The notes under the pieces are model-generated. The model was not told where the DNA came from. It did not search any database and saw nothing but the letters and a program-made list of their open reading frames with translations. Source: Nitrospirota bacterium (lineage in GTDB: Bacteria > Nitrospirota > Thermodesulfovibrionia > UBA6902). Taken from it: DNA of 37,925 nt. Below are positions 4,923-28,602 of this stretch, piece after piece. The stretch lies in NCBI GenBank assembly GCA_016213945.1, contig JACQZF010000051.1:1-37925 (forward strand), read 5' to 3'. A program made the position numbers and the translations under genes. How positions within the stretch are numbered: the first letter of the stretch is position 1; every line of letters begins with the position of its first letter.

Positions 4923-5537
4923 CTATTTAATCTGCTTTCTCTTTTCTTCCAGCTCGACGTCGATGTTTTTTAATTGGTTCAGCTTTTCAGTTATCTTTTT
5001 ATTTTCGCTTTCAAGTTCTTTGTTAGCGCTTTCAAGCTTTTTTATTTCCCTTTCAAGTCTTTTGTGCTCTCTCTGAAGGTCATTGTTCGCGCTCTCAAGT
5101 TCCGGGATTCCTTTCCTTAACCTTTCCACCCTTTCTCTCAACTCTTCATTTCGATCGGAGTACCTTACAATCTCTTCAAGCATGCGGAGCCAGTTTTGAA
5201 TAAAGTCTTTCCTGCCGTATTCAGGACTTAGCGACTCAAATGTCTTAAGCTCCTTTAATGCCCTGCGGTTATCAGGCGCCGGATTTCTGTAATGTGAAAA
5301 GAGAAAGGCAAGCTTAAGGTGCGCATTCACAGCAAAGGTCGCATCCGTCGGTCTTTTTTTTGCTTCCAATAACCATTCAATCTCTTTCTGAAATCCCGCC
5401 GGTTCCAGAGCTGTATACTCTGCGTAAAGGGGATCGGAGGGCATTTCCTTTTGAATGCTTCTCCCGGTACATTGAAACGCAGATGCAACTAACAGGAGCA
5501 AAGCGACTATGCTGATAACTTCAATCAATCTGTTCAT
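4923..5537 (-). CDS. Membrane-anchored coiled-coil protein, possible lipoprotein (QseG/YfhG-like)
   Basis: About 204 residues from the ATG at 5537. An N-terminal hydrophobic segment (IVALLLLVASAF) ends in QC, resembling a weak lipobox, so lipidation at that Cys is possible but not canonical. A helical middle region (TPR-like, about residues 45-110) follows. From about residue 115 to the end there is a strongly charged coiled coil with repeated ELESAN, KLESANKELE and ENKKITEKL, closing with NIDVELEEKRKQ. That ending resembles periplasmic QseG/YfhG-type lipoproteins, although no QseF/QseE partner is present. The frame stays open up to 5726, but that extension lacks a signal and is probably untranslated. 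Confidence 0.6.
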   Translation of the reverse strand: MNRLIEVISIVALLLLVASAFQCTGRSIQKEMPSDPLYAEYTALEPAGFQKEIEWLLEAKKRPTDATFAVNAHLKLAFLFSHYRNPAPDNRRALKELKTFESLSPEYGRKDFIQNWLRMLEEIVRYSDRNEELRERVERLRKGIPELESANNDLQREHKRLEREIKKLESANKELESENKKITEKLNQLKNIDVELEEKRKQIK

Positions 5538-5732
5538 TTCGTAATAATTAGGTATCCGTTCTTTCTCTATATCAGGCCCCCTTGTTAATAATCTCTCCTG
5601 GTTATTATACCCTACTTTCACCCACTTTAATGAAAATTTAGCACAAAATCCTTTTTTGTCAAGCTTGGCGCTTTTGATCAAAATACATTTCCCGGTCTTG
5701 ACACGAAGCGGATTCATTGATAGCATTTATTC

Positions 5733-6308
5733 ATGGAAACACCTTTACAAATTGTTTTGCGGGATGTCGATCTCTACAAAGAGAGCCTCGACGAAGAGAT
5801 CAAAAAATGGTCTGCTAAACTTGAAGAATATCATCCCCAGATCATCAGTTGCCGGGTTGTTGTGGAGCGTCCTCATAAGAGCAGCCACAGCGGAAATTTA
5901 TTTAAGACCACTATAACGTTAAATGTGCCCGACAAGCAGATAGTTGTGAGCCACGAGCACCCTCTTCACCACAGTCACGAAGACATACACGTTGCAGTCC
6001 ATCACGCCTTTGATGATGTCGCGCGCCAGCTTGAAGAGCATTCCTTTATTATGAGCGGCAAGATAAAGAGCCATGACCATCTGCCCTATGGAGTGGTCGC
6101 CAAACTCTTCCCCGATGACGGCTACGGTTTCATAGAGGTGACCGGGGCAAGGGAGATATACTTCCACGAAAACAGCGTGCTCGACGGTTTTGATAAGCTT
6201 AAGATCGGCATGGAAGTCCGCTTTGCTGAAGAGATGGGGGAAAAGGGCCCGCAGGCAAGCACCGTAAAGATCGTCAGGAAAAACCACGCCCGCCACCGGG
6301 AGCATTAG
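5733..6308 (+). CDS. Ribosome hibernation factor HPF/RaiA fused to a cold-shock domain
   Basis: Residues 1-110 resemble the S30EA/HPF ribosome-binding fold, with a beta-alpha-beta start (IVLRDVDLYKESLDEEIKKW) and a basic, His-rich face. Residues about 123-185 form a cold-shock nucleic-acid-binding domain with RNP1 DGYGFIEV and RNP2 EIYFHEN. The family silences ribosomes in stationary phase; the CSD probably adds an RNA contact or temperature response (inference). The architecture is known in several bacterial phyla. It stands as a single gene, divergent from the coiled-coil protein, with no clear Shine-Dalgarno at the ATG. It ends 30 bp from the convergent Slp gene. Confidence 0.85.
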   Translation: METPLQIVLRDVDLYKESLDEEIKKWSAKLEEYHPQIISCRVVVERPHKSSHSGNLFKTTITLNVPDKQIVVSHEHPLHHSHEDIHVAVHHAFDDVARQLEEHSFIMSGKIKSHDHLPYGVVAKLFPDDGYGFIEVTGAREIYFHENSVLDGFDKLKIGMEVRFAEEMGEKGPQASTVKIVRKNHARHREH

Positions 6309-17107: not shown

Positions 17108-17335
17108 ATGCTTACAGATCTCGATAAGATAGTACAAAGCGGGGTGGATTATTCCCGTAATAATCCGGCAACGGCAATAATTATAATTGTAGTGGTCATC
17201 TATCTGATTTTCAGAAGGCCAAAATTTTTCTTTTCTGTCCTGTTCCTGGTTTTTTGCACGTTCGGCTTGCTGAAGTTACTGTCTAAACTTTCAACGCTCG
17301 GATTGGAGCATAATAAAATACCGTTCATTGAATAG
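17108..17335 (+). CDS. Small two-helix membrane protein, unknown function
   Basis: A protein of 75 residues with two hydrophobic helices (ATAIIIIVVVIYLIF and FFFSVLFLVFCTFGLLKLL) separated by the positive loop RRPK. It has a charged N-terminus with no signal-peptidase site and was not recognised as a family. It has no strong Shine-Dalgarno. Its last 11 bp overlap the 3' end of the convergent P-type ATPase. The 95 bp before it hold only AT-rich, repeat-like sequence. It looks like a real gene from its composition and length, but support is modest. Confidence 0.55.
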   Translation: MLTDLDKIVQSGVDYSRNNPATAIIIIVVVIYLIFRRPKFFFSVLFLVFCTFGLLKLLSKLSTLGLEHNKIPFIE

Positions 17336-20060
17336 CTCCACTTCTCCTGTACCGCCACTTCTCTATCTCTACCGTAAAGAAAACCACTGATGACAATAAG
17401 AGCGTAAACGACAGCTCGCTCAGCGTCAAAGGCTCTGTCTTAAATACAGGGTTCAATGCAGGGACATATATGGTTGCCATTTGCAAGGCAAAGGTCAGCA
17501 CAACCGCGCCGAGGAGGTAGCTGTTGGAGAATAAGCCTATCTTAAACAACGACTCTTTTTCCGACCTTATGGCAAGGACATGGCCGAGCTGGGTCAGGCA
17601 GAGCACTGTAAATACCATTGTCTGCCAGTGCGAGTGCCCGGTACTAATAGACCAGGCCTGGACAAACAGGACAACGCCGGCCATCAACAGGCCGACCCAT
17701 ATCGCGTGAATTCCCAGACCGTGAGCGAATATGCTTTCCTTTGGATGCCTTGGATGTCTTGCCATTACATTCCCCTCGGCAGGTTCAACAGAAAGGGCCA
17801 GGGCAGGGAGACTGTCCGTCACAAGATTTACCCATAGAATATGGATCGGAAGAAGGGGGATCGGCAGGCCGACAAGGGGCGCAAGAAAGAGCGTCCATAT
17901 CTCTCCAGAGTTTGTTGTAAGGAGATATTTGATGAATTTCCTGATGTTGTCGTATATCTTTCTCCCTTCACGCACGGCTTTAACGATAGTGGCAAAGTTA
18001 TCATCAAGGAGTATCATGTGGGCCGCCTCTTTTGAGACGTCCGTCCCTGTTATTCCCATAGCAATACCGATGTCGGCCCTCTTTAACGCAGGGGCGTCAT
18101 TGACGCCGTCGCCTGTCATGGCAACGAACTGTCCTTTGTCCTGAAGCGCCTTTACTATCTTCAGTTTCTGTTCAGGAGCTACCCTTGCGTATACCCTGAT
18201 ATGCTCAACTCTTTCCTCAAATTCCTCAAGCGACAATTTCTCAAGTTCCCTTCCCGTAATTATTGTCCTTGCGTCATCTTCAATGATGCCGAGCCTCTTT
18301 GCTATTGTCCTCGCCGTAAGCGGATGGTCGCCTGTTATCATTACAGGTTTAATACCGGCGGTCTTACACAAAGTCACCGCCTCCCTCGCCTCTTCCCTCG
18401 GCGGGTCCATCATGCCTGTCAGCCCTAAAATAGTGAGGCCGGTTTCCACATTCTCAGCATACATATCATCAGGCAGGCTGTCCCACTTTCTCATGGCAAC
18501 ACAAAGGACCCTCAAACCATCAGCAGCCATCCTGTCGCTGACCTTCAGTATCTTTCCCCTGTCAATTTCCTTCAACCCTTCTGAAGTCAGTATGCTGTCC
18601 GCCTTATCGATCAGGACCTCTATCGCGCCTTTGGTAAAGGAGATAAAATTAGAGCAGTAGCCCGGCAGACCTGAAGAGCAGTAGTCAATTGAGGAAGTTT
18701 TTTTATCTTCCATCTGTTGCCCTGCTGCTCTACTGCTCTGCTGTTCTGTTGCTCTATGAAACGTCGTCATACACTTTCTGTCTGAGTCGAAAGGTATCTC
18801 AGCGACTCTCGGAAACTCCTTTTCAAGTTCCTGCTTATTGAATCCATTCTTGTCCGCGATATCAAACAGCGCGGTCTCCGTGGGGTCGCCAATGAGTTTA
18901 CCGTCCTTATCCAGAACAGAATCATTGCTGAGGGCAAGGGCAGTAAAAAATAGGGATTGGGGATTGGGGATTAGGGATTGGCTTTCTTTACTAATCCCTA
19001 ACCCCTGACCCCTAATCCCTATAATTTCATTGTCTGCATACATCTCCTCCACCGTCATCCTGTTCAGCGTCAGCGTGCCGGTTTTGTCCGAGCAGATGTA
19101 TGTGACCGAACCTAACGTCTCTACGGCATGGAGTTTCCTTACAAGGGCATTCTGCCTGACCATCTTTTTAGCGCCGAGGGCCAGCGATATAGTTATTACA
19201 GCAGGCAGCGCCTCGGGGATCGCGGCAACCGCGAGAGAAATAGCCGTCAGGAGCATTAACATCGGCTGTTCCCCTCTTATTATGCCGATGCCGAAGACGA
19301 TCGCGCATATTGCAAGAACTGCGATAGCGAGTTTCCGGCCGAAGACTGCAAGCCTTTTCTGGAGCGGGGTCTTTACCTCTTCCTCCTCCTGAAGCATGGC
19401 AGCGATCCTTCCAAGCTCAGTATTCATTCCTGTTTCGGTGACAACACCGATACCGCGTCCGTAGGTCGCAAAGGTCCCCCTGTATGCCATGTTCTTCCTG
19501 TCGCCGAGTGGAAGAAATTCATCGTGGAGTTCTCCTGAGTTTTTTTCCGCGGGGACGGACTCTCCGGTAAGCGCGGCCTCTTCGATCTTCAGCCGGGCCG
19601 CCTCTATTAGTCTCATGTCGGCAGGCATGACCTTTCCAGCCTCAAGAATTACAACATCGCCGGGGACGAGTTGGGAGGCGGGGATGTTCGCTGGCACGCC
19701 GTTTCTCATTACGGTTGCTGACGGCGCCGCCATCTTTTTAAGGGCAGCCATCGCCTTTTCAGCCCTGTATTCCTGTATGAATCCGATGACCGCATTGAGA
19801 ACGACAATGACAATTATTGCAATTGTATCCGACAACTCGCCGATAAATCCTGAAATGACCGCGGCAGCTATGAGGACAAGGATCATGAAGTCCCTGAACT
19901 GGTCAAGGAACATCATGAAAGGGGTCTTCTTCTTTTTCTCTTTTAATTCATTCGGGCCGTATTCTCCGAGACGCCTGACAGCTTCTTCTGAAGAAAGGCC
20001 CTGTGCGGATGACTTCAGATCTTCGATAACAGAAGTTATATTTTTTTGATGCCAGTGCAT
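17325..20060 (-). CDS. P-type cation-transporting ATPase (P2-type; Ca2+/Mn2+ efflux candidate)
   Basis: A protein of 911 residues. N-terminal cation ATPase domain (SSEEAVRRLGEYGPNEL); actuator loop TGES; TM4 IPEALPAVITIS; phosphorylation site DKTGTLT; P-domain TGDHPLTA and TGDGVNDAP; TM6 WVNLVTDSLPALAL; six C-terminal helices. The PEALP and NLVTD residues fit P2 Ca2+-type pumps, and Mn2+ transport is likewise known in this class. It starts 3 bp after the UPF0182 stop and sits downstream of a probable Mn2+ riboswitch, favouring Mn2+ and/or Ca2+ export (inference). Two repeat insertions sit in the nucleotide-binding domain: GLGISKESQSLIPNPQS (nt 18951-19021) and a Gln/Ser-rich stretch (nt 18657-18761). 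Confidence 0.93.
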   Translation of the reverse strand: MHWHQKNITSVIEDLKSSAQGLSSEEAVRRLGEYGPNELKEKKKKTPFMMFLDQFRDFMILVLIAAAVISGFIGELSDTIAIIVIVVLNAVIGFIQEYRAEKAMAALKKMAAPSATVMRNGVPANIPASQLVPGDVVILEAGKVMPADMRLIEAARLKIEEAALTGESVPAEKNSGELHDEFLPLGDRKNMAYRGTFATYGRGIGVVTETGMNTELGRIAAMLQEEEEVKTPLQKRLAVFGRKLAIAVLAICAIVFGIGIIRGEQPMLMLLTAISLAVAAIPEALPAVITISLALGAKKMVRQNALVRKLHAVETLGSVTYICSDKTGTLTLNRMTVEEMYADNEIIGIRGQGLGISKESQSLIPNPQSLFFTALALSNDSVLDKDGKLIGDPTETALFDIADKNGFNKQELEKEFPRVAEIPFDSDRKCMTTFHRATEQQSSRAAGQQMEDKKTSSIDYCSSGLPGYCSNFISFTKGAIEVLIDKADSILTSEGLKEIDRGKILKVSDRMAADGLRVLCVAMRKWDSLPDDMYAENVETGLTILGLTGMMDPPREEAREAVTLCKTAGIKPVMITGDHPLTARTIAKRLGIIEDDARTIITGRELEKLSLEEFEERVEHIRVYARVAPEQKLKIVKALQDKGQFVAMTGDGVNDAPALKRADIGIAMGITGTDVSKEAAHMILLDDNFATIVKAVREGRKIYDNIRKFIKYLLTTNSGEIWTLFLAPLVGLPIPLLPIHILWVNLVTDSLPALALSVEPAEGNVMARHPRHPKESIFAHGLGIHAIWVGLLMAGVVLFVQAWSISTGHSHWQTMVFTVLCLTQLGHVLAIRSEKESLFKIGLFSNSYLLGAVVLTFALQMATIYVPALNPVFKTEPLTLSELSFTLLLSSVVFFTVEIEKWRYRRSGAIQ
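18657..18761 (-). repeat. In-frame repeat in the P-type ATPase N-domain (AGCAG/CTGCT type)
   Basis: Copies of GAGCAGTAG on one side and CTACTGCTCTGCTG on the other form an imperfect inverted repeat. The encoded peptide reads EQQSSRAAGQQ, followed by SSIDYCSSGLPGYC. Conserved N-domain sequence (RKCMTTFH before, FISFTKGA after) resumes on both sides. Confidence 0.7.
18951..19021 (-). repeat. In-frame palindromic repeat in the P-type ATPase (GGGATTAG type)
   Basis: The left arm (18951-18979, repeating GGGATTGGGGATTAGG) and the right arm (18992-19021, AATCCCTAACCCCT...) are inverted copies around a short spacer. It is read through in frame as a peptide containing LIPNPQS, between EMYADNEI and FFTALALSND of the ATPase. 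Confidence 0.8.
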
Positions 20061-20063
20061 TAT

Positions 20064-22754
20064 TTACTTTGCCATCCTCTTCAAAATCTGCTCCAGTCTT
20101 TTAATTTCCTCTCCATAGCCTGCCCAGTTTCCCTGTCTCTGCAGTTCGACAGCTTTTTCAAATACCTTCATCGCCTCTTTTGCAAGGTCTGTGGTGGTTG
20201 TCTTCATATCCACTGTTACAGTCGTCCCGTCGGCCGGTCCGGTAGTTATTTTCATCGTGCCGAATAATCTCCGGAGGGCGATATCGAGATTTTCTTCCAT
20301 GACCACATTATTCTCATAGGCAACAATAACCCTTCTCAATTCAGGCAAACCGGCCTTATCGGCAGCCGCAAGGTAAAGCGGCTGGACATATAAAAGAGAC
20401 TGCTCTATCGGGATCACGAGGAGGCTGCCCCTTATGACCTCTGAACCGCTTTGCCCCCAGAGAGTAAGCTGCTGGGAGATGTAGGAGTCCTGGTTTATCC
20501 TTGCATCGACCTGTTTCGGGCCAAAGACAAGCCGGTCCCTCGGAAAGGTATAGACAAACAGTTTCCCGTAATTCGGCTCATCGCATCGCGCAGCAAGCCA
20601 GGCGGCGAGGTTATCCCTTTTTGCAGGGCTGTACGGCAGAAGCAGAATATAATCTTCCTTCTTTTCTCCCGGAAGCTTCATTATTGTGTAATAAGGCTCC
20701 ATGTATTTTTCCCCGAAAGCAGGCACCTCCCACAGGTTCTCCTTATTGTAAAAAATCTTCGGGTCTGTCATGTGGTATAAGGCAAACATGGAGGCCTGCA
20801 CCTGAAGAAGCCGGTTCGGATACCGTATATGTCGCCTTATATCCTCGGGCATCTCTTTCAGGGACTTGAACATGTCAGGGAATATCTTTGAATAAACCTT
20901 GATGATAATATCAGTGGGGTCGCTCACATAAAAACCCATAGAGCCGTTATAGGCATCAACCACAACCTTCACCGGGTTCCTTATGTAATTAACATTCCTG
21001 TCTGCTGACTTTGAATAAGGCATCCTGTTTGACACAGTGTATGCATCCACAATCCAGAAAAGTCTCCCATCGCCAGATATAACGATATAGGGGTCCTGAT
21101 CAAAAAGCAGAAAGGGCGCTGTTTTCCTGACCCGTTCCAATACGTTTCTATAATATAAGACCTTGCTTTCCCCTGTGATATCGGAAGAGAGCAGGATCTT
21201 CTCCGTCTTGAATTTCAGGGCAAATAAGGCCCTTTTAAGCAGGGAGTCCAGCCTGATGCCGCCGCTGCCTTCATAAGATGTGTATACATTGCCTTCAGAC
21301 GTTGGATAGCTGAATTCAGGGACCTTTGTCTTCACTATTACATAATCGTTGGAGAGTTCGCCGTAGTATATCTCCGGCCTTGCAACCTTGAGGTCCAGAC
21401 GGCTGACAGGGGGGATGTCCTTTATTATGAACTCGGGAAGGCCTTCTTTGGTGATCCTGCTTACGGGCCCCAGCGTTATGCCATTCCCATGGGTAAATAT
21501 CAGCCTCTCGTTTATCCAGTTCCTGCTCGGAAGGTCGCTGTATGAGAGTTCCCGGGGCGAAAGCATCACCTGCATATATTCGCCGTCTATTGTATATCTG
21601 TCATTATCAACGTCCGCAAACTTATAGTAGGTCCTTATCTGCTGGAGCTGGCTGTAGGTCCTGAGAAGCGGGCTGTGGTCCCATAATCTTATGTTTTTTA
21701 TAGTGGCGTCATTTACTTCTATGTCCGTGACCGTCAGGTTATAGTCAACATCAAAGGGTATTACCTCTATCCTCTCAAGGTCGTAGCCCAGCCTTGTGAA
21801 TTTTATGCTGTGTTCTATAAACGGCGTCTCAAGCGCCAGTTCATTCGGCGCTACCTTGAATTTCTGCAGTAAGGACGGATATGCCACAATCCCGATCAGA
21901 TACACTGCCAGGACCAGGACCGGCGGGACAAATGTCAGTTTGCCTGAGCCTCTCAATATCCCAGCCATAAAGACAATGCCTGCTGCCGGGGTGATGAATA
22001 TCAGTATCCTGTAAAAAAAGAGTTTCGCGTAAATGTCCGTATACCCTGCGCCGGAGACAACGCCATGGTCCGAGAACAGAAGCCTGAATGTATCGAGATA
22101 AAAGCCGAAGCCGGTATTAAGGATGAATAACCCTGCCAGGACCCCGATATGCTTCTTGACTCCCACGTCTATGGAAACGCCTCTCTCAGTTACAAGGATA
22201 CCGCCTCTTAAAAAATAGTTTGCAGCCGTCAATATCATCGTTAATGCCAGAGTGAAACCTGCAAAGCCCTTTACCGTCTCTACAAAGGGAAGCCTGAACA
22301 GATAAAAGCCGATGTCTTTGGCTAATATGGGGTCTGCCGTTCCCATGTCCAGACTGTTCTTAAAGAGCAGGAACTCTTCCCATCTTAACGCGCCCCACTG
22401 CCCTGCAAAGACAGCCATAACAATCCCTGCAATTACAGTAAGGGGTTTGATAAACCTTTCCAAACCGCTCGCTTTTAATATGTGGAGGACCCCGTCACTT
22501 GTAAATATTTCTCTTTGAGGGAAACCAATCCTGTTGGCAATGATTATATTCGCCAGAGCAAACAACAGAAATGCTGTGCCAAAAAATAAACCTGTGCTGA
22601 TCCTGGTAAAGAGCGCCTTGAAAAAGACCGCCGCATACCCGGTTTCCGCAAAAAAGAGCCAGTCAACGTACAGGTTCAGTAAGCCCAGAAGAAGCGGCAT
22701 TACCAGAAAGATAATCCCAAACAGAAGCAAATAAGTTATTTTATTTTTATTCAC
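20064..22754 (-). CDS. UPF0182 family membrane protein
   Basis: A protein of 896 residues, matching COG1615/UPF0182. The N-terminal third has about seven membrane helices (from YLLLFGIIFLVMPLLLGLL to LVLAVYLIGIVAYPSLL). It is followed by a very large extracytoplasmic domain with family-typical stretches such as DVDNDRYTIDGEYMQVMLS, THGNGITLGPVS and YVQPLYLAA, and a C-terminal helical tail resembling MgtE/TPR-type segments (LQRQGNWAGYGEEIKRLE). The function is unknown in the literature I know. GTG start with GGGGGA upstream. It lies 3 bp before the P-type ATPase, so it is almost certainly co-transcribed, under the presumed Mn2+ riboswitch. Confidence 0.93.
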   Translation of the reverse strand: MNKNKITYLLLFGIIFLVMPLLLGLLNLYVDWLFFAETGYAAVFFKALFTRISTGLFFGTAFLLFALANIIIANRIGFPQREIFTSDGVLHILKASGLERFIKPLTVIAGIVMAVFAGQWGALRWEEFLLFKNSLDMGTADPILAKDIGFYLFRLPFVETVKGFAGFTLALTMILTAANYFLRGGILVTERGVSIDVGVKKHIGVLAGLFILNTGFGFYLDTFRLLFSDHGVVSGAGYTDIYAKLFFYRILIFITPAAGIVFMAGILRGSGKLTFVPPVLVLAVYLIGIVAYPSLLQKFKVAPNELALETPFIEHSIKFTRLGYDLERIEVIPFDVDYNLTVTDIEVNDATIKNIRLWDHSPLLRTYSQLQQIRTYYKFADVDNDRYTIDGEYMQVMLSPRELSYSDLPSRNWINERLIFTHGNGITLGPVSRITKEGLPEFIIKDIPPVSRLDLKVARPEIYYGELSNDYVIVKTKVPEFSYPTSEGNVYTSYEGSGGIRLDSLLKRALFALKFKTEKILLSSDITGESKVLYYRNVLERVRKTAPFLLFDQDPYIVISGDGRLFWIVDAYTVSNRMPYSKSADRNVNYIRNPVKVVVDAYNGSMGFYVSDPTDIIIKVYSKIFPDMFKSLKEMPEDIRRHIRYPNRLLQVQASMFALYHMTDPKIFYNKENLWEVPAFGEKYMEPYYTIMKLPGEKKEDYILLLPYSPAKRDNLAAWLAARCDEPNYGKLFVYTFPRDRLVFGPKQVDARINQDSYISQQLTLWGQSGSEVIRGSLLVIPIEQSLLYVQPLYLAAADKAGLPELRRVIVAYENNVVMEENLDIALRRLFGTMKITTGPADGTTVTVDMKTTTTDLAKEAMKVFEKAVELQRQGNWAGYGEEIKRLEQILKRMAK

Positions 22755-22801
22755 AGTATCCCCCGTTCAAACGGTTATTAATACCTAAATTGAGCGATTC
22801 T

Positions 22802-22880
22802 TTTCTGCCATTCCGGCAGTCCTTAAGCCGGCATCCAGTCTTTTCGATAAGTTCCGAATGCCGTATAGACTTCGGGCATG
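22802..22880. repeat. Degenerate CATTCCGG-type palindromic repeat
   Basis: Contains GCCATTCCGGCAG...CCGGCATCC and a second block GAATGCCGTATAGACTTCGGGCATG. It is related to the element at 4809-4898. It fills the 155-bp gap between the zinc-ribbon gene and UPF0182; no U-rich terminator is seen, so read-through is plausible. Confidence 0.5.
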
Positions 22881-22909
22881 AAAAAATACAGTTTATAGAC
22901 AGGCGCTAA

Positions 22910-23215
22910 TTACTTTTTAAAAACACTGAACAATTTATCAAGCCCTATTTTCTCGAGCTTTGATACAGCTTCAAGCTCACCGGCATCAAGCCATATGCCA
23001 TCGCATTCAGAGCACTTGTCCACTTTTATTTTTTTGTAGTCAATCTCTATCAGCTCCATCCCGCACTTGGGGCATCTCATATTATGAAGCTCTTTCAGTT
23101 TTATTTTCTCTTCTTCTTTAAGTTTCTTATGCTTCTCTTCCTCCAATTTCTTTTTTCTCTCAAATTCCCCCCTTACAATAAATTCTGCTTCTCTTTCACT
23201 CGGTTTTTTTGGCAT
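22910..23215 (-). CDS. TFIIB-type zinc-ribbon small protein
   Basis: A protein of 101 residues. Residues 1-47 are a highly charged helix (repeated KKLEEEKHKKLKEEEKIKL). Residues about 48-85 form a zf-TFIIB-like ribbon: MRCPKCGMELIEI, then VDKCSECDGIWLDAGELE. This matches the bacterial zf-TFIIB family (four Cys, WLDxGEL). The Shine-Dalgarno is excellent (AGGAGG). It is the first gene after the riboswitch/terminator at 23240-23384. Zinc-ribbon proteins of this type have no settled function. Its position suggests a part in divalent-metal handling or in the maturation of its membrane neighbours (inference). Confidence 0.85.
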   Translation of the reverse strand: MPKKPSEREAEFIVRGEFERKKKLEEEKHKKLKEEEKIKLKELHNMRCPKCGMELIEIDYKKIKVDKCSECDGIWLDAGELEAVSKLEKIGLDKLFSVFKK

Positions 23216-23240
23216 AAGTACCTCCTGTATTTTGATGTTA

Positions 23241-23293
23241 ATAAAAGACCTTTACCACGAATGCATATTACATGCAACCGTGATAAAGGTCTT
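23241..23293 (-). terminator. Riboswitch expression-platform terminator
   Basis: On the minus strand, AAGACCTTTATCACG (23293-23279) pairs with CGTGGTAAAGGTCTT (23259-23245), 15 bp with one G-U, followed by TTATTA. The 5' arm includes the 3' strand of aptamer stem P1, so aptamer folding and terminator are mutually exclusive. The U-tract is moderate. Confidence 0.75.
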
Positions 23294-23384
23294 GCTTGTT
23301 AGTTTTTACCTAACCAGCGGTACCGGCCTGCCTAAGGCAGACGTGCTGACGACAGCCGCTGATCCAGCTACTCCCCTTTACCCG
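23282..23384 (-). promoter_or_regulatory. yybP-ykoY (Mn2+) riboswitch aptamer
   Basis: The minus-strand RNA contains the hallmark GGGGAGTAGC (23376-23367), a TGTCGTCAGCACG segment, a small hairpin CTGCC-TTA-GGCAG, then ACCGCTGGT, then AAGACCTTTATC. Stem P1 pairs GGTAAAGG (23382-23375) with CCTTTATC (23289-23282). These are the conserved parts of the yybP-ykoY family, which senses Mn2+ and commonly controls P-type ATPases, MntP and TerC proteins. Ligand binding would hold P1 and free the downstream gene from termination (an ON switch). Recognition was by eye; a covariance-model search was not possible. Confidence 0.85.
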
Positions 23385-23388
23385 TGTA

Positions 23389-23417
23389 GTTATAGCTGAA
23401 TATAATGAATATGTCAA
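23389..23417 (-). promoter_or_regulatory. Promoter of the riboswitch operon
   Basis: TTGACA (23417-23412), a spacer of exactly 17 bp and TATAAC (23394-23389). The start point would be near 23382, just at the first base of riboswitch stem P1. Confidence 0.8.
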
Positions 23418-23656: not shown

Positions 23657-25618
23657 ATGAGAAGATTATTCATATTCCTGAACAACATTATTTTCCTGCT
23701 CATCGCCCTGTTTTTGTTCCGCCTGACTTTTTTTCTCAAGTACAGTGATATAACAGGGATAAACTTTAAAGACGTGCTTCTTGCTTTTTGTGTGGGGTTG
23801 AGGTTTGATCTCGCAACAGCGGGTTATATTTTGACACCGGTCACGCTCCTGTTTTTTATTCCGTTTATCTCGGAGCGGGAGAAATATCTTAAAATAACGT
23901 CCCTGCTTTCCCTGCTTTGGCTGAATCTTATAATTATTTTCCTCTTTGTAGACCTGAATTATTACCAGTTCTCACAGAGACATTTGACCTTTGAGATCTC
24001 CAACACCATGGGGGACATCCCTTCCATCGTGAAGTCTGGTTTCAGGGAATACTTTCCTGAAATGTTATCTCTGTTCTTTTGTATGGCCGTTTATTCATAT
24101 GGTTATTTATTTGCAATAAAAAAGATATTCATAAGAACACCCGCCGGTCAGCCGCGCTTATTAAAAGACATTTGCGTGTATGGGGCCGTTCTATTGATTA
24201 TCGGATCGTCAACAGTCGTCATGGCGAGGGGCGGCATCCAGAGGCTGCCGCTGAATTTAAGTGACGCATACGTAGGTAATTCTTCCTATCTGGGGAATCT
24301 TGCGCTCAATGGCGCGTATACGTCTTTGAGGACCCTGTACAGTTTACAGTTCAAAGACAAGCTGTGGTGGGATATTCAGTATTATCCTTTTGAAGAGGCG
24401 GTGGAAAAAGGACAAAAGATGATGATATCCCCTGAGAGAGAGGAACTCCTTTCTCCCGGTTACCCCATTTACAGGCATTACAGGTATAACGCCGGAGAAT
24501 TTAAGCCGTTGAACGTAGTAATTTTTATGATGGAGAGCTGGACGGCTAAATATATCAGCGCGTTCGGGGGCAAAGAAGATGCGACCCCGTATTTCAGCAG
24601 CCTGTGCAAGGACGGGGTCATCCTGGAAAATTTATTTGCAAACGGGCAGCGTTCCGCGGAAGGCATCTCCGCGACTTTAGCATCTATTCCCGTATGGGGC
24701 GGAATGATAGTCCCGATCAACCCTTCACTCTCCCAGATGCCCGTTAAGTTTCTCCCGTCCATTCTGCTGGATGAGGGATATAACACAATCTATATTCACG
24801 GAGGGAAAAGGGATTCATTAGGCCTGGCCGGCTTCATTAAACAGGCAGGGTTCACAACGCATATAGCAAAAGAAGATATTGAAAAGGCAGGCGGCAGGGA
24901 CGACGGGTTCTGGGGCATCTATGACGAAGACACATTCCAGTATGCGCAGAAAATATTCGAGGAACAAAAACAACCATTTTTCTCCGTCATATATTCGTTA
25001 AGCAGCCACACGCCTTATAAAGTGCCTGAGGAAAAATTTAAATTTTACGGCAAAGACGTCCCTCACAGAGATTTTCTAAACTCCCTGAGATACTCCGATT
25101 ACGCTCTTTCCAGATTTTTTGAGAAGGCGAAGAATTCAGACTATTTCAAAAACACCATCTTTGTCATAGTGGCGGACCACGTTGAAGGAAATTCCTCGCA
25201 CGATAATCTTTTCGAGTCGTTTCATATCCCGGGCCTGATATACGCCCCGTTTCAGCTCAAGCCCGCCGTCATTAAAAAACCTGTTACCCAGGCCGACCTG
25301 ACTCCCACGATCCTTGATATCCTGCACAACTCAAAACCTCATGCCTCAATCGGTATATCCGCATTTGATGAAAATAAAAGCGGCATGGGGCTTCTTGCTC
25401 TCGGAGATTTAATGGTCTTTGTAAAAGACGACTGGCTGCTGCTTTCTTCGGTTAATGATGCGAAAGGATTATTCAATTACAAAAAAAATCCCTCTGAGGA
25501 CCTGTCAGCAGGCGGTCCGCCCAAATTGAATGAGATGGACCAGGAGCTTCATTATTACCTGCAGTTCGTCCACGATCTGATATTGAAAAACAGATTGTTC
25601 CTTGACGCCCGCAAATAA
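23657..25618 (+). CDS. LTA synthase/MdoB-type phosphoglycerol transferase (alkaline phosphatase superfamily)
   Basis: A protein of 653 residues. Five membrane helices (about residues 1-190) are followed by an extracytoplasmic sulfatase-fold domain. Metal and catalytic features: MMESW (first metal ligand Glu), then NGQRSAEGISATLASIP, where the nucleophile expected as Thr is Ser. Further along are IHGGKRDSLG, WGIYDEDTF, SLSSHTPYKVPE and VADHVEG (metal Asp-His). Relatives transfer phosphoglycerol or phosphoethanolamine to lipids, glucans or LPS; in a Gram-negative host the acceptor is unknown. It is a single gene and the start has little ribosome-binding support. Confidence 0.85.
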   Translation: MRRLFIFLNNIIFLLIALFLFRLTFFLKYSDITGINFKDVLLAFCVGLRFDLATAGYILTPVTLLFFIPFISEREKYLKITSLLSLLWLNLIIIFLFVDLNYYQFSQRHLTFEISNTMGDIPSIVKSGFREYFPEMLSLFFCMAVYSYGYLFAIKKIFIRTPAGQPRLLKDICVYGAVLLIIGSSTVVMARGGIQRLPLNLSDAYVGNSSYLGNLALNGAYTSLRTLYSLQFKDKLWWDIQYYPFEEAVEKGQKMMISPEREELLSPGYPIYRHYRYNAGEFKPLNVVIFMMESWTAKYISAFGGKEDATPYFSSLCKDGVILENLFANGQRSAEGISATLASIPVWGGMIVPINPSLSQMPVKFLPSILLDEGYNTIYIHGGKRDSLGLAGFIKQAGFTTHIAKEDIEKAGGRDDGFWGIYDEDTFQYAQKIFEEQKQPFFSVIYSLSSHTPYKVPEEKFKFYGKDVPHRDFLNSLRYSDYALSRFFEKAKNSDYFKNTIFVIVADHVEGNSSHDNLFESFHIPGLIYAPFQLKPAVIKKPVTQADLTPTILDILHNSKPHASIGISAFDENKSGMGLLALGDLMVFVKDDWLLLSSVNDAKGLFNYKKNPSEDLSAGGPPKLNEMDQELHYYLQFVHDLILKNRLFLDARK

Positions 25619-27600: not shown

Positions 27601-28602
27601 TCAACTCCGCATCATATAAAGCAGCACAAGATTTGTAATATACACTGTTGCTATCCCGATGGAATCCCACGCTAACAACAATCTCTTCTTCTCCGCGCGA
27701 TACGTCAGGCCTATAACCGCGATGACCGTCATGGCAATAGCAGACAATGCCGGGACCATGTGATTGTTATTTGTAAAAGAAAGAAGAGGCCCCTTGAAGA
27801 AAAACATATCGTCAATAGCCAGGATTAAGACATTGAAAATATTGCTGCCGAAAAGATTTCCGATCGCGAGGTCTACTGCATTCATCCTTACCGCGGAAAT
27901 GGAAACCACTGCTTCAGGAAGCGATGTTGAGACCGCGATGAATATATTGCCGACAAAGGTCTGTCCGAGCCCGCTTATTTCGGCTATCTTCCCGCCCAGC
28001 TCTGGCAGGAATACGGCTGCGGCAATTACAATCAGCGAGTTGACACAGTAATTAAATACCGCTGTTTTTACTGAAACACCCTCATACTTCAACTCCTCAG
28101 CCATCTCTTCCATGAACACGGCAAGCTGTCTTTTTTCATAAGAATAGATCAACCTCATGGCAATGACATAGATAATTACAAAAAGAGGGGTATAAATGCC
28201 GACCCATCCTATAGTAATAACCCGGTCCCCAAGAAACAGGCTTGCAGCGATAATACTCAAAAGCAATATCCCGAAGCCGGCGGAAAGAATGTGGCCGTGG
28301 TGCGCCTTTGCGGATATGGGGGTAGGTTTATAAATTGCATCAAGCAGTGCGAGGATGAACATATTGAACACACAGCTTCCTATCACGTCACCTGCGGCTA
28401 TATCGGGGACACCCGCATAAGTGACAGAGCTTATCCCGGTCACAAGTTCCGGCAGGGATGTGACAGATGCCATGAGCACGACGCCTATCCAGGTCCTGCC
28501 GAGCCCTGTCTTTTCAGCAATGATATCCCCGTACTTTGAAAGTCTTGTCCCGGCGTAGACTATTGCTGCTGTGCAGAAAGCAAATGCGGTCCAGAGTAAC
28601 AT
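27601..28602 (-). CDS. Calcium/sodium exchanger (CaCA family, YrbG-like)
   Basis: A protein of 333 residues with about ten membrane helices in two inverted halves. The alpha-repeat signatures are both present: ASVTSLPELVTGISSV with GDVIGSCVFNMFIL (first), and AVSTSLPEAVVSISAV with GNLFGSNIFNVLIL (second). Their acidic residues bind Ca2+. It exchanges cytoplasmic Ca2+ (or another divalent ion) for Na+ or H+. Shine-Dalgarno-like TAAGG precedes the ATG. It is 7 bp downstream of the Kef-type pseudogene, with which it may once have formed a cation-transport unit. Confidence 0.9.
   Translation of the reverse strand: MLLWTAFAFCTAAIVYAGTRLSKYGDIIAEKTGLGRTWIGVVLMASVTSLPELVTGISSVTYAGVPDIAAGDVIGSCVFNMFILALLDAIYKPTPISAKAHHGHILSAGFGILLLSIIAASLFLGDRVITIGWVGIYTPLFVIIYVIAMRLIYSYEKRQLAVFMEEMAEELKYEGVSVKTAVFNYCVNSLIVIAAAVFLPELGGKIAEISGLGQTFVGNIFIAVSTSLPEAVVSISAVRMNAVDLAIGNLFGSNIFNVLILAIDDMFFFKGPLLSFTNNNHMVPALSAIAMTVIAVIGLTYRAEKKRLLLAWDSIGIATVYITNLVLLYMMRS

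Follow-up and report, generated by a model that had tools for sequence, protein, structure and literature searches.

Evidence that a subfamily of UPF0182 membrane proteins belongs to an Mn2+ riboswitch regulon in Nitrospirota and Geobacterales

The DNA considered here is a stretch of 37,925 nucleotides from a Nitrospirota bacterium (GenBank contig JACQZF010000051.1, positions 1 to 37,925), hereafter called the window, and the question that it raises is why the gene for a membrane protein of the UPF0182 family should stand, with genes for a small zinc-ribbon protein and a P-type ATPase, behind a putative manganese-sensing riboswitch. A preliminary description of this DNA had placed one promoter and one riboswitch before these three genes, and had suggested from their company that the UPF0182 and zinc-ribbon proteins function in Mn2+ tolerance. 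Our comparisons argue strongly that the UPF0182 gene is a member of the Mn2+ switch regulon, and we consider it likely that its product is a working part of the Mn2+ response. All elements of the proposed unit are present on the minus strand with the coordinates first assigned to them and, in the order promoter, riboswitch with overlapping terminator, zinc ribbon, UPF0182 and ATPase, they form one apparent transcription unit, as follows.

23389..23417, minus strand: near-consensus sigma-70-type promoter, TTGACA-17-TATAAC, read from the sequence
23280..23384, minus strand: yybP-ykoY (Mn2+) riboswitch aptamer, assigned from the score against covariance model R1, covariation, and the match of model R2 to the mntP and alx leaders
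23245..23293, minus strand: intrinsic terminator hairpin, its 5' arm overlapping the 3' strand of helix P1.1, from the predicted fold
22910..23215, minus strand: small zinc-ribbon protein (Zn_ribbon_TFIIB) of 101 residues, from Pfam PF13453
22755..22909, minus strand: intergenic region between the zinc-ribbon and UPF0182 genes, scanned and folded
20064..22754, minus strand: UPF0182 (PF03699) membrane protein of 896 residues, from Pfam and AlphaFold2
17325..20060, minus strand: type IIA P-type ATPase (PMR1/SPCA/LMCA1-like) of 911 residues, from Pfam, NCBIfam and PDB matches

The leader of this unit carries a conserved GGGGAGUAGC loop, a UCGUCAnnACG loop and GCAAGACC, and a pattern based on GGGGAGUAGC and GCAAGACC matched 36 of 296 Nitrospirota genomes, repeatedly directly upstream of orthologues of the window ATPase, with few matches for the reversed control. 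A covariance model (R1) built from 35 related leaders, the window leader included, gave the window leader 100.4 bits and matched 69 leaders in 54 of the 296 genomes. The 35-leader alignment has 29 pairs, 14 of them with two-sided compensatory changes, and 95.4% of its cells are paired; two-sided compensatory cells number 89, against 29.9 ± 5.0 in shuffled alignments (0 of 500 shuffles reached the observed value), and a partner-sliding control destroyed the pairing. A second model (R2) was rebuilt from 75 Nitrospirota and Geobacter-type leaders and contained no Escherichia coli sequence. In 9 kilobases (kb) of E. coli K-12 it nevertheless gave two significant matches, the leaders of mntP and alx (each with an E of about 1e-10; the third-ranked match had an E of 0.67), and these are the two reported Mn2+-sensing riboswitches of that organism (PMC9603457).

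The Rfam model of the class, RF00080, gave the window leader 12 bits (gathering score 45), returned nothing at E ≤ 0.001 from the whole window genome and recognized no Nitrospirota or Geobacter-type switch among those tested here. Because the same model leaves the proven mntP switch at 41.6 bits, short of its own cut-off, and omits alx from its list, we attribute the miss to a weakness of the model, and the argument that there is no riboswitch since Rfam is silent was rejected. Homology to proven Mn2+ switches, together with the covariation, identifies the window leader as a yybP-ykoY riboswitch, a class whose aptamer is Mn2+-selective over Mg2+ (PMC6754395). The leader resembles the yoaB-type switch of Lactococcus lactis in its loop motifs, in the sharing of the P1.1 3' strand with a terminator and in its place before a P-type ATPase operon; it differs from the RF00080 consensus in that this lineage's version scores under the Rfam cut-off and that the genes downstream include UPF0182 and a zinc ribbon. 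Most aptamers found here have a short joining segment, whereas the E. coli mntP switch has an extra insert there.

Helix P1.1 pairs positions 23375-23381 with 23283-23289 (GGUAAAGG with CCUUUAUC), and its 3' strand (23283-23289) is embedded in the 5' arm of the strong terminator at 23293-23245, which, in the predicted fold, has a 16-pair outer stem followed by a U-rich stretch. The predicted minimum fold of the leader contains the terminator, and when the terminator 3' arm was blocked in silico P1.1 formed, as it does in the aptamer alone. In the L. lactis switch Mn2+ stabilizes P1.1 and prevents the terminator, and without ligand the 3' segment of P1.1 is taken up by the terminator (PMC11087558). 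The overlap of P1.1 and terminator in the window is the same arrangement and leads us to expect an ON switch by Mn2+, both the binding of Mn2+ and the ON logic being transferred from characterized homologues. At high cytosolic Mn2+ the metal would bind to the leader RNA as it is transcribed, and P1.1 would form; since the P1.1 3' strand doubles as the terminator 5' arm, termination would then be blocked, and all three proteins, zinc ribbon, UPF0182 and ATPase, would be made together.

The anatomy of the unit is consistent with such joint expression. The UPF0182 and ATPase genes are, as first described, 3 base pairs apart (20060/20064). In the wider gap between the zinc-ribbon and UPF0182 genes, where a terminator or promoter had been singled out as something to look for, a scan of the operon strand detected neither a terminator-like nor a promoter-like site, and its folding was unremarkable (z −1.5; 12 of 200 shuffles were equally or more stable). 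The three genes are apparently co-transcribed. The operon promoter (23417-23389) was overlooked by our promoter scanner because its final base is C instead of T, and is identical in a sister genome of the same genus (G004).

The recurrence of this gene order behind the switch, which the preliminary description had proposed to look for, was borne out. Another Nitrospirota genome (L214) has the exact window order of switch, zinc ribbon (84% identity), UPF0182 (76%) and ATPase (78%), with a second switch upstream, before an HtpX gene. Rearranged versions are found in the sister genome G004, where switch, UPF0182 (93%) and ATPase (79%) follow one another without a zinc ribbon; in G083 (locus L128), where a carbonic anhydrase gene lies behind a first switch and UPF0182, GDT1, TerC and zinc ribbon lie behind a second; in G304 (L167), which has a Na/Ca-exchanger-type gene, a switch and UPF0182; and, in a different class, in G106 (L140), where a switch (5264-5380) precedes a UPF0182 gene split into two overlapping frames. 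The split in L140 may be an assembly error or a frameshift. Several of these loci are limited by contig ends. The window genome has a single R1 match and a single UPF0182 gene, both within this operon.

The same linkage extends to the Geobacterales, members of another phylum, for which we used the order of genome G332 (141 genomes, with the places of UPF0182 genes parsed in 86). A switch was found in 116 of the 141 genomes and UPF0182 in about 87. In at least 47 of the 86 parsed genomes UPF0182 lies 128-3763 bases downstream of a same-strand switch, whereas the controls, an opposite-strand switch within 6 kb and a switch downstream of UPF0182, both gave 0 (chance expectation about 0.07). The 47 genomes should not be taken as so many separate origins, the operon having probably been inherited, and what the counts show is that the linkage of switch and UPF0182 has been maintained. 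Arrangements seen in Geobacterales and relatives are switch-(HtpX)-TerC-UPF0182 or switch-HtpX-UPF0182, often with GDT1 (L220, L224, L227, L228, L229, L233, L234, L237 and L253); L219 reads TerC, an unknown gene, UPF0182, TerC, zinc ribbon, GDT1. UPF0182 has a IIA-type ATPase gene as its direct neighbour in L218 and L255, while in L248 a single gene separates the two, and Na/Ca-exchanger relatives adjoin UPF0182 in L167, L170, L173 and L180. With linkage in L214, other Nitrospirota and the Geobacterales, the notion that the window operon is a peculiarity of one genome was rejected.

A census of the genes downstream of 69 Nitrospirota switches (those of the sample plus three from further genomes of the window family, minus those at contig ends) gave as first gene HtpX in 18 cases, ATPase in 12, zinc ribbon in 10, GDT1 in 6, carbonic anhydrase in 6, UPF0182 in 4, TerC in 2, FtsH in 2 and band-7 in 1, with 8 unlabelled; the labels are approximate, coming from BLAST to a small reference set and greedy open-reading-frame calls, and missed GDT1 and TerC in L128. 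The regulon is wider than first read, and also takes in HtpX, FtsH, band-7, TerC and GDT1. HtpX, an M48 membrane protease, is the gene most often found first (18 of 69; L100, L101, L102, L103, L107, L109, L116, L125, L142, L144 and others). In the six carbonic anhydrase cases the switch stands directly before a beta-carbonic anhydrase gene; they include L128 (switch at 5689-5769), L100 (8521-8619), L103 (8023-8121) and L109 (8095-8206).

Is the association with the switch, then, a property of UPF0182 proteins as such? In a tree of 136 UPF0182 proteins (FastTree, midpoint rooting only) 14 of the 15 switch-linked copies fall into one 38-row clade with support of 100, which also holds the labelled ATPase-, TerC- and exchanger-adjacent copies; the fifteenth, the fragment from L140, was placed outside it. 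The link to Mn2+ is therefore a matter of a subfamily. With the exception of L140, R1 and R2 detected no switch beside those UPF0182 loci that were scanned from outside the clade, and the idea that association with the switch is a feature of all UPF0182 proteins was rejected: the proposed Mn2+ link holds for one subclade and not for the family as a whole, whose members occur in cyanobacteria, actinobacteria, Nitrospirota and delta-proteobacterial groups. The usual UPF0182 proteins of the window's genus sit in other clades and most are only about 60% identical to the window protein, whose gene more probably arrived together with its operon than derives from the usual gene of the genus. Compared with stand-alone UPF0182 (PF03699) genes, the window copy is likewise a full-length family member and differs in belonging to the switch-associated clade. 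A Leptospirillum UPF0182 gene lies beside spermidine genes and is described as of unknown function (PMC7231039), which suggests that other subfamilies have other contexts. Upstream of the stand-alone genes in L021, L022, L026, L027, L029, L031, L032 and L034 we noted a conserved ATGTTATCCTAC-like stretch, preceded by TTGACA in some, that is perhaps a shared promoter or operator; it is absent from the window copy.

The window UPF0182 protein matches PF03699 with 939 bits (cut-off 27) over profile positions 3-770 of 770, and its AlphaFold2 prediction has a mean predicted local distance difference test score (pLDDT) of 86 and a predicted template modelling score of 0.82. The predicted layout is of seven long hydrophobic transmembrane helices followed by a mixed extracytoplasmic region of about 500 residues, and the positive residues in loops 2-3, 4-5 and 6-7, as read from the sequence, would put this C-terminal region outside. 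Predicted alone, residues 335-832 gave a pLDDT of 85.8. This outer domain is the best-conserved part of the protein (mean column identity 69%, against 57% for the whole) and contains many near-invariant aspartate, glutamate and histidine residues. Against solved structures Foldseek returned nothing at E ≤ 0.001 for either the whole protein or the outer domain, and the best VIA-align Z-scores, 6.6 for the membrane helices with MSL10 and 5.5 for the outer domain with the YpeB PepSY domains, are both in the usual noise. A phmmer search for solved relatives gave only a poxvirus match at chance level, and the idea that UPF0182 can be recognized through solved relatives was rejected. Weak similarities between stretches of the outer domain and copper amine oxidase N-domains, PsbP and SnoaL-like folds were left out of account.

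Our current working hypothesis is that the window operon is an Mn2+-induced tolerance operon that would combine export with handling of the metal in the envelope. The ATPase would expel Mn2+, and perhaps Ca2+ as well, from the cytoplasm, while UPF0182, with its seven membrane helices and large outer domain, would receive or buffer the exported Mn2+, or help to load or protect envelope proteins. UPF0182 is not tied to any single exporter, its partner being, according to the genome, the ATPase, TerC with GDT1 or a Na/Ca-exchanger-type protein, and the zinc ribbon would be an optional small cytosolic accessory. That UPF0182, the zinc ribbon or both are found in other loci beside the accepted Mn2+ export families TerC and GDT1 fits an Mn2+ role. 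The topology of UPF0182, its persistence as exporters change and its company together make action on the envelope side of Mn2+ export plausible, though short of probable.

Among the closest known systems is the TerC (Mee) system of Bacillus subtilis, whose TerC proteins load Mn2+ into Mn-dependent exoenzymes such as LtaS, co-purify with HtpX, FtsH and flotillins, and need FtsH (PMC10550928). TerC, HtpX, FtsH and band-7 proteins likewise lie behind the same switch in related genomes, and a gene of LtaS/MdoB-type sulfatase fold adjoins the window operon. UPF0182, in contrast, is no part of the described system, and no TerC gene was found in the window operon; TerC stands beside UPF0182 in L128 and in the Geobacter-type loci. 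The same parallel lends itself to another reading, that UPF0182 is a client, an Mn2+-requiring exoenzyme induced when Mn2+ is plentiful and outside Mn2+ handling. Its large conserved outer domain with near-invariant acidic and histidine residues would suit this, as would co-regulation with TerC and HtpX, members or co-purifiers of an exoenzyme metalation system, whereas the failure to recognize any enzyme fold in the protein and the predominance of exporters and proteases among the other genes behind the switch make it fairly unlikely.

The seven predicted membrane helices could instead themselves move Mn2+ or another cation, with the outer domain as gate or filter. For UPF0182 as a transporter or channel it may be said that the regulon includes other transporters and that in L140 and L167 (the latter cut by a contig end) UPF0182 comes first after the switch, and the available downstream sequence holds no other gene labelled as an exporter. 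We think this unlikely, given that conservation is strongest not in the helices but in the outer domain and that UPF0182 mostly accompanies a known type of exporter.

The ATPase bears on a third alternative. It has the Pfam domains PF00690, PF00122, PF00702 and PF00689, the N, A, P and C set of the IIA type, and the phosphorylation motif DKTGT, as CSDKTGTLT; its best PDB matches are LMCA1 and ATP2C1/SPCA1. Its best NCBIfam match, PMR1-type TIGR01522, is 728 bits, below the curated cut-off of 798, and we therefore call it PMR1-like, not PMR1. Membership of this family allows both Ca2+ and Mn2+ as substrates, and exporter activity is, like the switch logic, inferred from characterized homologues. 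Short repetitive stretches at about 18690-18760 and 18950-18990 of the ATPase gene (ctgctctactgctctgctg... and ggattggggattgggg...) look like small repeat-derived insertions within the nucleotide-binding region. The likeness of the pump to Ca2+ pumps and the exchanger relatives beside UPF0182 in four loci would suit an operon for Ca2+ or mixed Ca2+/Mn2+ homeostasis in which the switch only reports divalent load. In Streptococcus an Mn2+ riboswitch reportedly drives an Mn2+/Ca2+ ATPase, which we count against that view. With GDT1 and TerC among the partners of UPF0182 and an aptamer class selective for Mn2+ over Mg2+ (PMC6754395), we regard a Ca2+ or mixed operon as improbable. The window operon has in common with the Mn2+/Ca2+ ATPase systems of L. 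lactis (YoaB) and Streptococcus an Mn2+ riboswitch before a P-type ATPase gene, and differs in holding two further conserved genes and in having an ATPase of putative specificity.

The zinc-ribbon protein matches PF13453 with 57.7 bits (cut-off 22) and has two CxxC knuckles and a lysine/glutamate-rich N-terminal segment. Among 23 aligned relatives C48, C51, C68 and C71 are invariant, and those of the ATPase-associated group share a conserved charged N-terminal segment. As an operon member it is common, occurring with the ATPase within 4 kb downstream of 18 of the 69 Nitrospirota switches, and, to judge from its absence in G004, dispensable. That absence, and the many UPF0182 copies unlinked to a switch, might make both proteins hitchhikers without metal-related function beside an ATPase that alone matters, but this is very improbable given a linkage that persists across two phyla despite changing partners and orders, at least 47 linked Geobacterales genomes against none in the controls, and the repeated placing of UPF0182 first behind the switch.

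Several observations weigh against UPF0182 as a working part of the Mn2+ response. Solved structures offered no confident fold match to back a metal-handling domain; a close relative (G007) has a 90%-identical UPF0182 without an adjacent switch or ATPase; most UPF0182 genes outside the clade have no detectable adjacent switch or exporter, and the general function of the family need not be Mn2+; and IIA ATPases and Na/Ca exchangers may move Ca2+. The Mn2+ tolerance function first suggested for UPF0182 and the zinc ribbon keeps the support of linkage, with its scope corrected. Still more doubtful than action on the envelope side is a bolder form of our hypothesis, in which the UPF0182 subfamily would constitute a new class of Mn2+ acceptors or chaperones, anchored in the membrane and acting outside the cytoplasm. 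Within one Mn2+ riboswitch regulon of Nitrospirota and Geobacterales, these proteins would link the metalation of the envelope and the quality control of membranes (HtpX, FtsH, band-7) to interchangeable exporters (ATPase, TerC, GDT1, exchanger).

Two further genes of the window deserve mention. The divergent neighbour of the operon, at 23657-25618 on the plus strand, encodes a membrane protein with a sulfatase-type domain and, by sequence reading, LtaS/MdoB-like architecture, and could be a client of exported Mn2+, LtaS being an Mn2+-dependent exoenzyme. A Na/Ca-exchanger-type gene at 27607-28602 (minus strand) lies on the operon's strand about 5 kb upstream and is 54% identical to a gene in L121.

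In the open-access literature, to which our search was confined, we found no earlier account that places UPF0182 or this zinc ribbon in an Mn2+ riboswitch regulon, nor any linking UPF0182/COG1615 with manganese or HtpX with the switch; the papers there that mention UPF0182 assign it no function in the parts read. The current RF00080 model has a sensitivity gap, through which many regulons of this kind escape notice. Past the exporters, the Mn2+ riboswitch regulon takes in the membrane proteases HtpX and FtsH, in keeping with the view that export of Mn2+ serves the metalation of envelope enzymes, and HtpX, FtsH and SPFH/band-7 proteins behind the switch tie Mn2+ sensing to membrane protein quality control. 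UPF0182 is an orphan family of membrane proteins of about 900 residues, and because the genes of one subfamily lie again and again beside a metal-specific RNA sensor and known exporters of Mn2+, that subfamily now has a specific hypothesis, which cultivable Geobacteraceae or E. coli without mntP could serve to test.

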